The notes under the pieces are model-generated. The model saw only the letters and a program-made list of their open reading frames with translations, was not told the DNA's origin and ran no database searches. Below are positions 6,062 to 9,709 of a DNA stretch of 64,000 nucleotides, piece after piece; position 1 is the stretch's first letter; every line of letters starts with the position of its first letter. The DNA is taken from NCBI RefSeq assembly GCF_026391055.1, contig NZ_JAPLET010000017.1, positions 186,001 to 250,000 of the forward strand, read 5' to 3'. This DNA is from Spirosoma sp. GTDB taxonomy: Bacteria; Bacteroidota; Bacteroidia; Cytophagales; Spirosomataceae. The position numbers and the translations under genes were made by a program.

Positions 6062-6406
6062 ATGAACCTCCGCATCAACGGCCGCATCTGGCTTGAAACA
6101 TTTTCGAACGACACCGCCGAACGCTTTATGGGAATCGGTCGGCTGGAGTTACTAGGTCATATTCAGCGTACCGGCTCCATCAACCAGGCCGCTAAAGCCA
6201 TGAACATGTCCTACAAACGGGCCTGGGAGATGGTCCACTCCATGAATACACAAGCCAACACGCCACTGGTGGTAACGCAAACCGGGGGCGAAAAAGGTGG
6301 TGGCACTATCATAACGGCCGAAGGCGAAAAATACCTCAATCATTACCGGGGGCTACAGGATAGGTTCCAGAAATTCTTGGCCGACGAACTGGCGAATCTG
6401 CCCTGA
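6062..6406 (+). CDS. ModE-type winged helix-turn-helix regulator (stand-alone DNA-binding domain)
   Basis: A 114-aa protein made only of the N-terminal DNA-binding domain of the molybdate regulator ModE. The helix-turn-helix lies around residues 25-65 (GRLELLGHIQRTGSINQAA then KRAWEMV), followed by the glycine-rich wing TGGEKGGG and an ITAEGEKYL helix. The C-terminal molbindin domains that bind molybdate in E. coli ModE are missing, so effector sensing must differ or be lost. A ModE-like palindrome lies about 700 bp downstream at the start of the TonB-dependent receptor gene, making that receptor a likely target. Confidence 0.85.
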   Translation: MNLRINGRIWLETFSNDTAERFMGIGRLELLGHIQRTGSINQAAKAMNMSYKRAWEMVHSMNTQANTPLVVTQTGGEKGGGTIITAEGEKYLNHYRGLQDRFQKFLADELANLP

Positions 6407-6444: not shown

Positions 6445-6969
6445 TTAGTCTATTTCGCTACTGGCAAAGCGCGAACCTATCCGTCTTTCCCGAAACGATT
6501 TCAGTTGTTCCAGACGAATTATAAAACTGCCTCGAACAGACCGGTAATGCCCGATTAGTTCATCTTGTTGGTTAGACCTATGACGAGTCGTTTCAGCTCG
6601 CGCAATGAGTTTATCCATTTGTTTAATGCATGACAGAGTAGCCTCGATCTCTCGCTGGTTAACTAAGAGTGCTCGTTGAAAAAGCATCCTCGACGATTCC
6701 GTTGAACATGGTTCTTTCACGGGGGAGCTGGCTAAAGCTTCCTGCCACTGCCGCTCTAAATAACCAAAAGAACTGTTAATTAATAACTTACCAGGACTTT
6801 CAAGTGGTGCATAAGCTGGTGGGCAGGCGTCAGAAGGAAATTTTCCAACTTGATTCACCAGATTCATTAAGCTGGTTTGAGCTTCTGGAGATATTAGTGC
6901 AATGTATCTAGCACCAATGTTTAATATATAATTCTCTAGTAATACATCTATTGGTGGTGTATTTTCCAT
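6445..6969 (-). CDS. Hypothetical protein, 174 aa
   Basis: I do not recognise this protein. It has no signal peptide or clear membrane segment and looks mostly helical and charged; the stretch near residues 105-165 (REIEATLSCIKQMDKLIARAE and beyond) could form helical hairpins. The DNA is visibly more A+T rich than the genes on either side and the codon use differs, which suggests a recent arrival or a lineage-specific gene. It sits between the ModE-type regulator and the TonB receptor, on the opposite strand. The start is the ATG at 6969; no alternative is obvious. Confidence 0.55.
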   Translation of the reverse strand: MENTPPIDVLLENYILNIGARYIALISPEAQTSLMNLVNQVGKFPSDACPPAYAPLESPGKLLINSSFGYLERQWQEALASSPVKEPCSTESSRMLFQRALLVNQREIEATLSCIKQMDKLIARAETTRHRSNQQDELIGHYRSVRGSFIIRLEQLKSFRERRIGSRFASSEID

Positions 6970-7106
6970 AAATCAGCCTAGTTACTGTATACATAAAGAT
7001 ATAAGATTATACTTAATTTAAGATAGTAACATCAGCTAATACGCTAGACCGCTCCATCACTTTCCGTTGTAAAGCGGCACTCGTTATTTCCGTCGAAACC
7101 TAGCGG

Positions 7107-7132
7107 TCGTTATATTTCGGCGGAAATAACGA
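7107..7132. promoter_or_regulatory. ModE-like operator overlapping the leader of the TonB-dependent receptor gene
   Basis: An interrupted palindrome TCGTTAT-N12-ATAACGA (half-sites 7107-7113 and 7126-7132), with a further TCGTTAT half-site at 7081-7087. From memory the outer half-sites and overall spacing resemble the E. coli ModE box upstream of modA. The site ends 3 bp before the receptor's ATG at 7136, and an in-frame TAA at 7127-7129 inside the operator rules out a farther upstream start. Binding here would block transcription or initiation. A ModE-type gene lies about 700 bp upstream. Confidence 0.6.
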
Positions 7133-7135
7133 TGT

Positions 7136-9709
7136 ATGCACTACATTTTACTCTCTCTTTCGCTGATCTGTTCACACGCACAGGCCGATATGCTGTCTGA
7201 CAGCACCATCAGTCCGAAGGATTCACTGCGCAAAATTCAACTGAGTGAGATCGTCATTACAGCCTCACGCATTCCTGAAAATGTGCTTAAATCGCCGGTG
7301 AGTATCGAATTGCTCGACTCCCGGCAGATTCGATTATCTGCTCAACCCTCCTATTTCGACGCGATTGAAAACCTCAAAGGCGTTCAACTGCTGACGTCCA
7401 GCTTAGGATTCAAAGTCTACAACACGCGCGGCTTTGCCAACCCGACCAACGTGCGCTTCGTCCAGTTGGTAGATGGCATAGACAACCAGGCACCGCATAT
7501 TGGGGCACCTATCGCCAATGCGCTCGCTCCCTCCGACCTCGACATTCAACAGGTGGAGATTGTACCCGGAGCGGCTTCGGCACTCTATGGTCTGAACGCC
7601 CTCAATGGGCTGGCGCAACTGATTACTAAAGACCCGTTTTCGTCGCCGGGCTTGAGTGTTAGCCAGAAAACAGCGGTCAACCATGTCAATGATCCGCTGA
7701 TTTCGGCAAAAGTTTACAGCGAGACCAGCCTGCGCTACGTGCGGACAATCGGGTCGCGGGTGGCGGTCAAAATTAACGTTACCTATCAAAGCGGCTACGA
7801 ATGGATTGCCGGTGACCAGTCGGACCTAAACCCCAATGCCAACACCTCGCTGGGCCTGACGGGAACGAACAATCCGGGCAGCGATCTGGTCAATAACTAC
7901 GGCGATGAGTCGGCGAACCGACGAACGCTGACGGTGGGCGGCAAAAAATATGTGGTTTCCCGAACGGGTTATTTTGAGAACAACATCACTGATCTGAGCC
8001 TCCGAAACCTCCGGGGCGATGTGGGCCTGTACTGGCGTATTCGGCCGAACCTGACCCTCTCCTATCAGTACAAAGCCGCCACGCTTAACAACGTGTATCA
8101 GCGCACCAACCGCTTTCGGCTGGAAAATTACGTGCTCGATCAGCATGGTATTGCCCTCACATCGCCCTCGGTGCAGATACTGGCCTACCGGACGCGCGAA
8201 AACACGGGCGACTCGTACAACATTCGCTCGATGGCCGAAAACATCGACAAATCCTTTAAGTCCGACAACCAGTGGTTTACCGACTTCACAAACCAGTTCA
8301 CGAGCAGCACTGCAGCCGGACAATCCGCAGTCGACGCCCTACGTACGGCCCGGACTACGGCCGATGCGGGCCGACCGCAACCGGGTTCGGTAACATTCAA
8401 CCAGCAGGTAGACAGACTCCGTGACATCAACAACTGGGATATTGGCGCGTCCCTGCGGGTGAAATCCTGGCTGTACCATGCCGAAGCGCAGGTAGAGCCA
8501 ACCCGTGTTTTATGGGCGGGTTTCCGGCAGAAAACCGGCATCAACCTGCTGGCGGGGCTGGATTTCAGGCGGTATGTGGTCTTCCCCGACGGCAATTATT
8601 TTATCAACCCGGACATAACTAACAGTAACCTGATCTATGGCAAAACGGGTGGCTTTGTGCAGGCATCCCGCCAGTTTTTCGGTGAAAAGCTAAAGCTCAG
8701 CGGGTCGATCCGGCTCGATAAAAACACGTATTTTAATCCGAAAGTCAACCCCCGGATCTCAGCGGTATTCTCGCCCGTCGAAAACCATACTTTCCGGGCG
8801 TCGTACCAGACCGGTTTCCGGTTTCCGTCGCTGTTCGAGGCATTTTCCAACGTCAACTCAGGCGGAGTAAAACGGGTTGGCGGGCTGAAGATCATGTCGC
8901 AGGGCATTTTCGAAAACTCGTATCTGCGCACATCCATCGATGCCCTTCAGGCAGCCATCAACGCCGATGTGAACACCAATAAACTGACGACCGATCAGGC
9001 GATTCAGAAGAACAAAGGCCTATTGAAACCCAACACCTACACCTACCTAAAACCTGAGCAGGTCAACAGCGTTGAGGTTGGGTACAAAGGGCTGTTTTTC
9101 GACAAAAAGCTATACCTAGACGTTGATTTTTATTTTAACGTTTACCGAAATTTCATCGCGCAGGTGGAAGCCAACATCCCCAAAGGCAAGAACCCTGATT
9201 CGCTGGCCTATTACATGGCCGACCGGAATCAGCAGGAGCGCTACCGGCTATGGACCAACTCAAAAACGAAAGTTTATAATTATGGGGCGAGTCTGGGGCT
9301 GCGGTATTCGGCAGGTCGCGATTGGGTTATTTCGGGCAATGCCTCGCTGGCAAAACTGAATCGCACGGACCAGGGCGACGGGCTGGAAGAAGCCTTCAAC
9401 ACGCCCAAATGGATAACGAACGTGGGCATTTCGAATCCGACCCTCTGGCAGAACGTAGGGTTCTCGCTTAACTACAAATACCAGAGTTCCTTCCTGTGGC
9501 AATCGTCGCTGGCAACGGGTGTTGTTCCCGCTATCAACACCTTCGACGCCCAACTCAGCTACGCACTCCCCACCCCCGGCCGGTTGGTCAACTCGCTTTC
9601 GTTTAAAGTGGGGGGTACCAACTTGCTGAACCGGCCTTACACTACCTTCACCGCCGGACCGAGCGTGGGCGGCTTTTATTACGTTACAGTCGTAGCAACA
9701 GCGTTGTAG
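7136..9709 (+). CDS. TonB-dependent outer membrane receptor, candidate ModE-regulated
   Basis: An 857-aa outer-membrane transporter. A short signal peptide (cut near HAQA at about residue 17) is followed by a TonB-box-like LSEIVITASR (about 36-45), a plug domain (about 50-175, including VYNTRGF, LVDGID and VEIVPGAASALYG) and a 22-strand type barrel ending FYYVTVVATAL. There is no N-terminal carboxypeptidase-like domain and no SusD partner, so it is not a typical polysaccharide (SusC) receptor; siderophore, metal-chelate or oxyanion cargo fits better. The ModE-like operator at its start points to molybdate or tungstate complexes. Start fixed by an in-frame stop just upstream. Confidence 0.9.
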   Translation: MHYILLSLSLICSHAQADMLSDSTISPKDSLRKIQLSEIVITASRIPENVLKSPVSIELLDSRQIRLSAQPSYFDAIENLKGVQLLTSSLGFKVYNTRGFANPTNVRFVQLVDGIDNQAPHIGAPIANALAPSDLDIQQVEIVPGAASALYGLNALNGLAQLITKDPFSSPGLSVSQKTAVNHVNDPLISAKVYSETSLRYVRTIGSRVAVKINVTYQSGYEWIAGDQSDLNPNANTSLGLTGTNNPGSDLVNNYGDESANRRTLTVGGKKYVVSRTGYFENNITDLSLRNLRGDVGLYWRIRPNLTLSYQYKAATLNNVYQRTNRFRLENYVLDQHGIALTSPSVQILAYRTRENTGDSYNIRSMAENIDKSFKSDNQWFTDFTNQFTSSTAAGQSAVDALRTARTTADAGRPQPGSVTFNQQVDRLRDINNWDIGASLRVKSWLYHAEAQVEPTRVLWAGFRQKTGINLLAGLDFRRYVVFPDGNYFINPDITNSNLIYGKTGGFVQASRQFFGEKLKLSGSIRLDKNTYFNPKVNPRISAVFSPVENHTFRASYQTGFRFPSLFEAFSNVNSGGVKRVGGLKIMSQGIFENSYLRTSIDALQAAINADVNTNKLTTDQAIQKNKGLLKPNTYTYLKPEQVNSVEVGYKGLFFDKKLYLDVDFYFNVYRNFIAQVEANIPKGKNPDSLAYYMADRNQQERYRLWTNSKTKVYNYGASLGLRYSAGRDWVISGNASLAKLNRTDQGDGLEEAFNTPKWITNVGISNPTLWQNVGFSLNYKYQSSFLWQSSLATGVVPAINTFDAQLSYALPTPGRLVNSLSFKVGGTNLLNRPYTTFTAGPSVGGFYYVTVVATAL

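Follow-up and report, generated by a model that had tools for sequence, protein, structure and literature searches.

A conserved ModE-type operator before a TonB-dependent receptor gene of Spirosoma suggests regulated outer-membrane transport serving molybdenum supply

We analysed a stretch of 64,000 nucleotides from the genome of Spirosoma sp. (contig NZ_JAPLET010000017.1, positions 186001-250000; hereafter the window), in which a predicted operator of the ModE type lay directly before the gene of a TonB-dependent receptor. The genome had a size of 7.98 Mb and was 99.96% complete. Positions refer to the window, and loci, genomes and families of relatives are cited by our own labels where they have to be told apart. 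The features on which the analysis centred were as follows:

6062..6406, + strand: ModE-type winged-helix regulator of 114 amino acids (aa), DNA-binding domain only (profile matches to TIGR00637 and PF00126)
7081..7106, + strand: degraded operator copy TCGTTATTTCCGTCGAAACCTAGCGG, tandem to the main copy at 26 bp, with 3 mismatches to TCGTTAT-N12-ATAACGA
7087..7090, + strand: TTTC, a possible -33-like element that lies 20 bp 5' of the possible -7 box, in the upstream copy of the operator
7107..7132, + strand: predicted ModE-type operator TCGTTATATTTCGGCGGAAATAACGA with perfect arms TCGTTAT-N12-ATAACGA (from conservation and geometry)
7111..7118, + strand: possible -7 promoter box TATATTTC, one position off TAnnTTTG, inside the left operator arm
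7136..9709, + strand: TonB-dependent receptor/transporter of 857 aa (TBDR1), ATG at 7136 (from Pfam, an AlphaFold2 model and fold matches)

A preliminary description of this DNA had placed a palindrome at 7107-7132, an extra TCGTTAT at 7081, the receptor ATG at 7136 and a ModE-type gene at 6062-6406, and all of these coordinates were recovered. The extra TCGTTAT formed the left arm of a further 26-bp copy, the right arm of which had decayed. The two copies abutted head to tail (7081-7106 and 7107-7132), all 3 mismatches of the upstream copy fell in its right arm, and the right end of the operator was 3 bp from the receptor ATG. The exact palindrome was present as a single copy in the whole genome; since a reversed control pattern likewise occurred once, the pattern alone proved little. 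When up to 2 mismatches were allowed, 27 places were found in the genome versus 23 for the reversed control, and therefore weak single copies meant nothing without conservation.

Conservation was assessed in the 250 bp upstream of 29 orthologous receptor genes (the 30 best loci minus L028, which had no upstream DNA) and of 20 paralogues, which were receptors of the same genomes with 38-45% identity. With at most 3 mismatches the palindrome was found upstream of all 29 orthologues, in 11 cases exactly, and upstream of none of the 20 paralogues, and dinucleotide shuffles of the 29 orthologue regions contained it in 165 of 8,700 cases. Absence of the palindrome before orthologous receptors, named beforehand as a sign against ModE-type control, was thus not what we observed. 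Position by position, the arms were almost invariant and the flanks were variable, with a consensus of about TCGTTATATTYSNNNRRAMATAACGA. A second copy at a spacing of 26-27 bp was detected by script in 17 of the 29 orthologues (18 when L004 was counted by reading). We also considered a named Bacteroidota set of 80 loci with a related receptor, whose species were partly shared with the orthologue set and 4 of which had too little upstream DNA. The site was found in 59 of the remaining 76 loci with at most 3 mismatches and in 53 with at most 2; among 3,536 control windows taken at these loci, the corresponding numbers were 43 and 8.

The same element was found before molybdate transport genes. 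With at most one mismatch, the Spirosoma genome contained six places, of which four were inside mechanically called reading frames and were dropped for that reason. The two copies outside reading frames were located before this receptor and before an operon with genes for a PF00174 protein, ModA, ModB and ModC. TIGR01256 and TIGR02141 scored over their cut-offs for ModA and ModB, respectively, and for ModC the best model was modC, which stayed under its cut-off. Thus, a 26-bp palindrome with TCGNTAT-type arms did precede mod genes. When modA loci of relatives were fetched regardless of sites, a copy with at most 2 mismatches was present in 9 of 11, the two others being L145 and L152. Conversely, loci fetched for exact N12 sites mostly held modABC, PF00174-type, di-haem MbnH-like or second-receptor genes, those genes that were not scanned being judged by eye. 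Exact matches with spacers other than N12 (L062, L064/L084, L067, L068, L069 and L074-L077) were also inspected by eye, with G010 C26 and G021 C9 left out, and none of them stood before molybdenum genes.

The likely partner of the operator was the protein of 6062-6406. It matched the TIGR00637 model ModE_repress with an E-value of 2.4e-23, and PF00126, above its cut-off, was the sole Pfam domain in its 114 aa. The protein aligned to the N-terminal domain of E. coli ModE (residues 16-97 of 1o7l and 19-100 of 1b9m) and also matched 2ijl, so that the ModE N-terminal winged-helix domain was recognised by similarity and not by curated score. The preliminary description was right that this regulator lacks a molbindin domain. 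Moreover, a search at E <= 0.001 gave no TOBE domain in the protein or elsewhere in the genome, whereas 12 of the 14 genomes used as controls were positive. As the molbindin (TOBE/Mop) part was missing, we named the protein ModE-type rather than a full ModE.

The operator and the recognition helix of the regulator were found to change together. Five loci of one genus (L193-L197; f25 g34, which we take to be Flavobacterium with no tool support) had modE beside the receptor or PF00174 genes and showed no TCGTTAT site at 2 mismatches. Their intergenic regions carried TCAGTAT-N12-ATACTGA, an element of the same length, before this receptor family, before a second receptor family described below and before a PF00174 gene, and the locus L203 had it before an MbnH-like gene. 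All 6 ModE proteins with the recognition helix MAYRQAW had TCAGTAT-N12-ATACTGA sites (at most 2 mismatches). The SYxxAW helix was present in 51 rows of the helix table, in which Fibrella rubiginis was counted twice (L187 and L257); a site was detected in 28 of these rows, and all 28 sites were TCGTTAT or TCGATAT. This joint change tied the ModE-type protein to the element.

A scan of relatives further showed that the receptor and ModE occurred together and were often clustered. In a set of 59 genomes (our own and 58 relatives) we called the receptor at 50% identity or more, a threshold of our choosing, and scored at most 16 receptor candidates per genome, so that a missing receptor was no proof of absence. 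ModE was present in 34 of the 34 receptor-bearing genomes and in 3 of the 25 others, counts that were not corrected for phylogeny. All three genomes with ModE and no called receptor (G005, G007 and G018) also showed the site, upstream of modABC, of a PF00174-like gene or of the second receptor family. Outside the genus, both receptor and ModE were found in the same 3 of 23 genomes. In 16 of the 34 genomes, ModE was located at most 3 kb upstream of the receptor on the same strand, and 31 of the 80 named loci had it within 5 kb. Of 395 sampled genomes of the phylum, 103 had ModE. By hand tally, to which a Fisher test was applied, the exact N12 palindrome was present in 37 of these 103 genomes versus 5 of the 292 without ModE, and the reversed control gave 10 of 103 and 20 of 292, again with no correction for relatedness.

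We also looked for the inner-membrane permease in 24 picked genomes, all of which had ModE. ModB scored over its cut-off in 4 of them (our own, G226, G258 and G270). A moaA match was found in all 24 genomes, 23 times over the cut-off and the last time just under it. We had considered that receptor-bearing genomes without ModABC might be deficient in synthesis of the molybdenum cofactor (Moco) and hence import Moco; with moaA above cut-off in 23 of 24 genomes, this idea was unsupported and was given up.

The product of 7136-9709 had the plug and the beta-barrel of TonB-dependent transporters: PF07715 (Plug) scored 42.7 bits with a cut-off of 23.9, and PF00593 (barrel) scored 97.6 bits with a cut-off of 27. 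Its AlphaFold2 model had a pLDDT of 79.0 and a pTM of 0.79. Foldseek and VIA-align matched the fold to BtuB, Cir, PirA, FhuA, ZnuD and OprC, with VIA-align Z values of 27-32 over 510-608 residues among the 50 matches listed. None of the substrate-named NCBIfam models was above cut-off for the receptor; the heme/hemoglobin receptor models TIGR01785 and TIGR01786 gave 96.1 bits against a cut-off of 316.85 and 75.3 bits against 323.75, respectively. Conserved Arg, Lys and His residues of the family could not be placed in space and were not used. The model also predicted long helical stretches in the barrel loops (residues 363-428 and 598-629), to which a large ligand or a partner lipoprotein could perhaps bind. 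To our knowledge, such stretches are unusual for TonB receptors of small ligands.

The operator may also overlap the promoter of the receptor gene. All 29 orthologues had TAnnTT at the -7 position, and 8 of them had the full TAnnTTTG. A loose TT[TG][GC] at a spacing of 17-23 bp was found in 16 of 29, a figure that had no chance control. For Flavobacterium psychrophilum, PMC9723704 gives TAnnTTTG as the -7 consensus of sigma-A. Because the operator arm is in any case conserved for ModE, the overlap was only suggestive. By eye, the orthologues L016, L019 and L021 showed a further inverted repeat, TTGAnCAGTCAA, 5' of the operator, which is possibly the site of another regulator.

Besides the receptor of the window, two other receptor-like families accompanied the element. 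The second receptor family, of 664-686 aa and with a Plug domain, had an exact site in three relatives of the genus (L085, L090 and L094) and was found near ModE in L193, L195 and L208. The third was a protein of 730-757 aa near modE in family f36, which we take to be Chlorobiaceae (a nifB-like neighbour was recognised by eye, with no tool support). Sites with at most 2 mismatches were located upstream of it in L210, L211, L213, L215 and L216. It had no Pfam match; a hit to TIGR01783 under the cut-off (4.8e-25 in L211) pointed to a weak relationship with TonB siderophore receptors. The long ModE of L211, the one f36 member scanned, contained two TOBE stretches; the other long ModE scanned, L207, came from family f34. 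Since the f36 regulator thus has a molybdate-binding domain, molybdenum is likely to be the signal there.

Small PF00174-type proteins ("oxidoreductase molybdopterin binding"), of about 160-220 aa and mostly with a hydrophobic N-terminus, headed modABC operons or accompanied receptors (for example L139:6717-7196, L100:4984-5484 and L203:4193-4705). In an alignment of 10 rows, from which L087:4277-5068 was left out as it was ModA, 8 of 10 had no cysteine outside the N-terminal region. The absent residue would presumably be the cysteine that serves as molybdenum ligand in enzymes of the sulfite-oxidase fold, and the PF00174 proteins may be carriers rather than enzymes. A di-haem protein of the MbnH/MauG type stood with a PF00174-type protein in loci with ModE sites (L085:1395-2459 and L203:4750-5853, similarly in L090 and L094). 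The second TonB receptor was also present in the di-haem loci L085, L090 and L094, which suggests a link between molybdenum control and di-haem enzymes.

Genes of the TauE/SafE family adjoined a short modE, with a ModE site nearby, in four loci (L100:5531-6277, L199:5286-6029, L202:5262-6005 and L204:4812-5552), and in L199 and L202 they were also near moaA. Where ModABC is missing, the TauE/SafE-family protein might serve as a molybdate permease. A radical SAM gene of the spore-photoproduct-lyase family adjoined modABC in several genomes of the genus (L139:3257-4309, TIGR03886 with 545 bits), and open reading frames (ORFs) with a similar start were seen by eye in L089, L091, L095, L146, L147, L148 and L154. 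Between modE and the receptor of the window, an ORF call gave one further feature, absent from the preliminary description:

6445-6969, - strand: ORF of 174 aa without a Pfam or NCBIfam match

A 169-aa ORF that by eye has a similar start adjoined modE in L156 (6663-7172). A plasmid origin of the region found no support, as a megablast search of a plasmid collection gave no match to it.

Taken together, the conserved palindrome, its sharing with modABC, and the co-occurrence and clustering of receptor and regulator strongly supported, at the level of sequence, the ModE-type control of the receptor that the preliminary description had proposed. The receptor almost surely belongs to a ModE-type regulon. 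From this membership, the best reading was that it probably imports a molybdenum species. We consider it likely that the palindromes at 7081-7132 form a ModE-type repressor operator controlling a TonB-dependent transporter that serves molybdenum supply. The operator-binding protein would most likely be the 114-aa protein of 6062-6406, and we infer repression rather than activation, with molybdenum as the signal.

In the proposed mechanism, ModE would occupy the operator when molybdenum is plentiful, overlapping the likely -7 box and nearly reaching the start codon, and the receptor gene would be off. As a protein in this position would block initiation, repression under molybdenum sufficiency is what we would expect, and this is also the condition in which modABC of E. 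coli is repressed. When molybdenum is scarce, the receptor would be made along with modABC, which carries the second operator of the genome. The species that the receptor would then bring into the periplasm could be molybdate, tungstate or a chelate, and with ModABC added, both membranes would be spanned. Diffusion through porins is the commonly assumed way for molybdate to pass the outer membrane. Active import might be needed where molybdate is too scarce or where a complex is too large for porins. TonB receptors rarely carry bare ions and usually take complexes, and therefore we lean slightly to a complex.

A narrower version of this proposal, compatible with it, was that the receptor takes up molybdenum as a chelate or bound to a pterin (a molybdophore or a Moco-like compound), with the small PF00174 protein as a periplasmic carrier. 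We regard it as possible and hold it tentatively. The nearest folds included the catecholate receptors PirA, PfeA and Cir, although fold similarity was not discriminating; TonB transporters, as noted, usually take complexes; and the small PF00174 proteins shared the operator and the operons and mostly lacked the presumed molybdenum-ligand cysteine (8 of 10). However, given the moaA matches in all 24 genomes, import of Moco would not be needed. It is rather unlikely that the receptor, while a member of the ModE regulon, imports some other need of molybdoenzyme metabolism, be it a substrate, heme or copper for the PF00174 and MbnH/MauG-type proteins, or a sulfur compound linked to TauE/SafE. The nearest NCBIfam models were indeed those of heme/hemoglobin receptors, but the scores were far under the cut-offs (96 vs 317 bits). 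The receptor loci of relatives did hold PF00174, di-haem MbnH-like and TauE/SafE genes, and many ModE and receptor genomes had no ModB over cut-off; in this genome, however, the receptor gene stands alone, and besides its own operator just one near-perfect copy falls outside reading frames, the one at modABC. Where TauE/SafE shares its locus with moaA (L199 and L202), the role of a molybdate permease would be as likely.

Two further explanations would remove the receptor from the ModE regulon altogether. It is very improbable that the palindrome is the site of another regulator and that the nearby ModE-type gene is incidental, even though the short ModE has no ligand domain and modE is often distant from the receptor: the half-site and geometry are those of the E. 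coli ModE consensus, the same element stands at modABC, operator and recognition helix change together, and receptor and ModE co-occur across genomes. Likewise, the single copy of the reversed control pattern in the genome gives next to no weight to chance or a compositional artefact, which was contradicted by conservation and ruled out by the orthologue, paralogue, shuffle, control-window (random-window), reversed-pattern and phylum-sample controls.

A number of observations weigh against the assignment of the receptor to molybdenum supply under ModE-type control, and we gather them here. The 6062-6406 protein scored below the curated TIGR00637 cut-off (82 vs 98.5 bits), and sensing of molybdenum by a ModE without molbindin does not fit the simple picture. 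In 18 of 34 genomes the receptor and modE were not within 3 kb of each other, some of the assemblies being fragmentary. Many of the positives in the co-occurrence counts came from one family, and the MAYRQAW group represented one clade. Among the 76 named receptors, 17 had no TCGTTAT-type site; two of these stood behind a PF00174-type gene that had the site, one had a TCGATAT variant, and 14 had neither. By eye, an exact N12 copy lay at the start of a TetR-like gene in the relative G036 (L083), and the receptor of G016 had two in-frame stops. Of the 15 checked genomes with ModE and receptor, 12 had no ModB over cut-off, so that molybdate in the periplasm would have to cross the inner membrane in some other way in these genomes. 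Finally, the NCBIfam models, PDB sequences, AlphaFold model, Foldseek and VIA-align named a "TonB receptor" and no substrate.

A broader hypothesis can be formulated, which we regard as doubtful. In Bacteroidota, and probably in Chlorobia, TonB-driven outer-membrane uptake of chelated or pterin-bound molybdenum or tungsten might have been recruited at least three times (three receptor families), with small PF00174 proteins, mostly lacking the presumed ligand cysteine, as periplasmic carriers, ModABC or a TauE/SafE-type permease for inner-membrane entry, and a minimal ModE that would sense molybdenum without molbindin. The pairing of a receptor family with ModE across many genera of the phylum suggests that these bacteria may invest energy in the outer-membrane step of molybdenum acquisition. 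Since the genes are now named, active import of molybdenum or tungsten and the natural molybdenum species used become directly testable. A minimal ModE without a sensor domain seems to hold the regulon together.

Both ModE regulons and TonB transporters are familiar systems. What was not found in print was a TonB receptor among the conserved targets of ModE, with a doubled operator and a ModE reduced to its DNA-binding domain. Our literature search for a ModE-controlled TonB receptor or TonB-dependent transport of molybdate gave no result, and a survey of ModE sites from 2003 may already mention a target in Chlorobium; this survey, by Studholme and Pau, reportedly described conserved ModE sites with green sulphur bacteria included.

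The system of the window can be compared with several known ones. Azotobacter secures molybdenum with catechol molybdophores and takes it up as a chelate, which is alike in the idea of chelated uptake; we know of no ModE-controlled receptor for these molybdophores. BtuB, ZnuD, OprC, PfeA and PqqU share the plug and barrel fold. In contrast to that group, which is under riboswitch, Zur, copper or Fur control, the receptor described here has a ModE-type operator and predicted helical loops (363-428 and 598-629), and its identity to these proteins is about 10-17%. In the T6SS-ModA-IcmP system of Pseudomonas aeruginosa, the outer-membrane protein IcmP has been reported to act in molybdate transport, and that system differs by its use of secreted ModA (PMC8602904). 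The single-domain ModE of Desulfovibrio is alike in consisting of the DNA-binding domain alone, and its sensing mechanism was called not clear; it differs in its predicted operator, CGGTCACG-N14-CGTGACCG, and in its tabulated targets, which are mod operons (PMC545781). The ModE regulon of E. coli, with the consensus ATCGNTATATA-[N6]-TATATANCGAT, shares the 26-bp palindrome geometry, the winged-helix domain with the SYK motif and modABC among the targets, and PMC545781 and PMC2700814 both give the consensus. Unlike in E. coli, the predicted regulator here is the DNA-binding domain alone, a TonB receptor would be among its targets, and the operator is often doubled at 26-27 bp.

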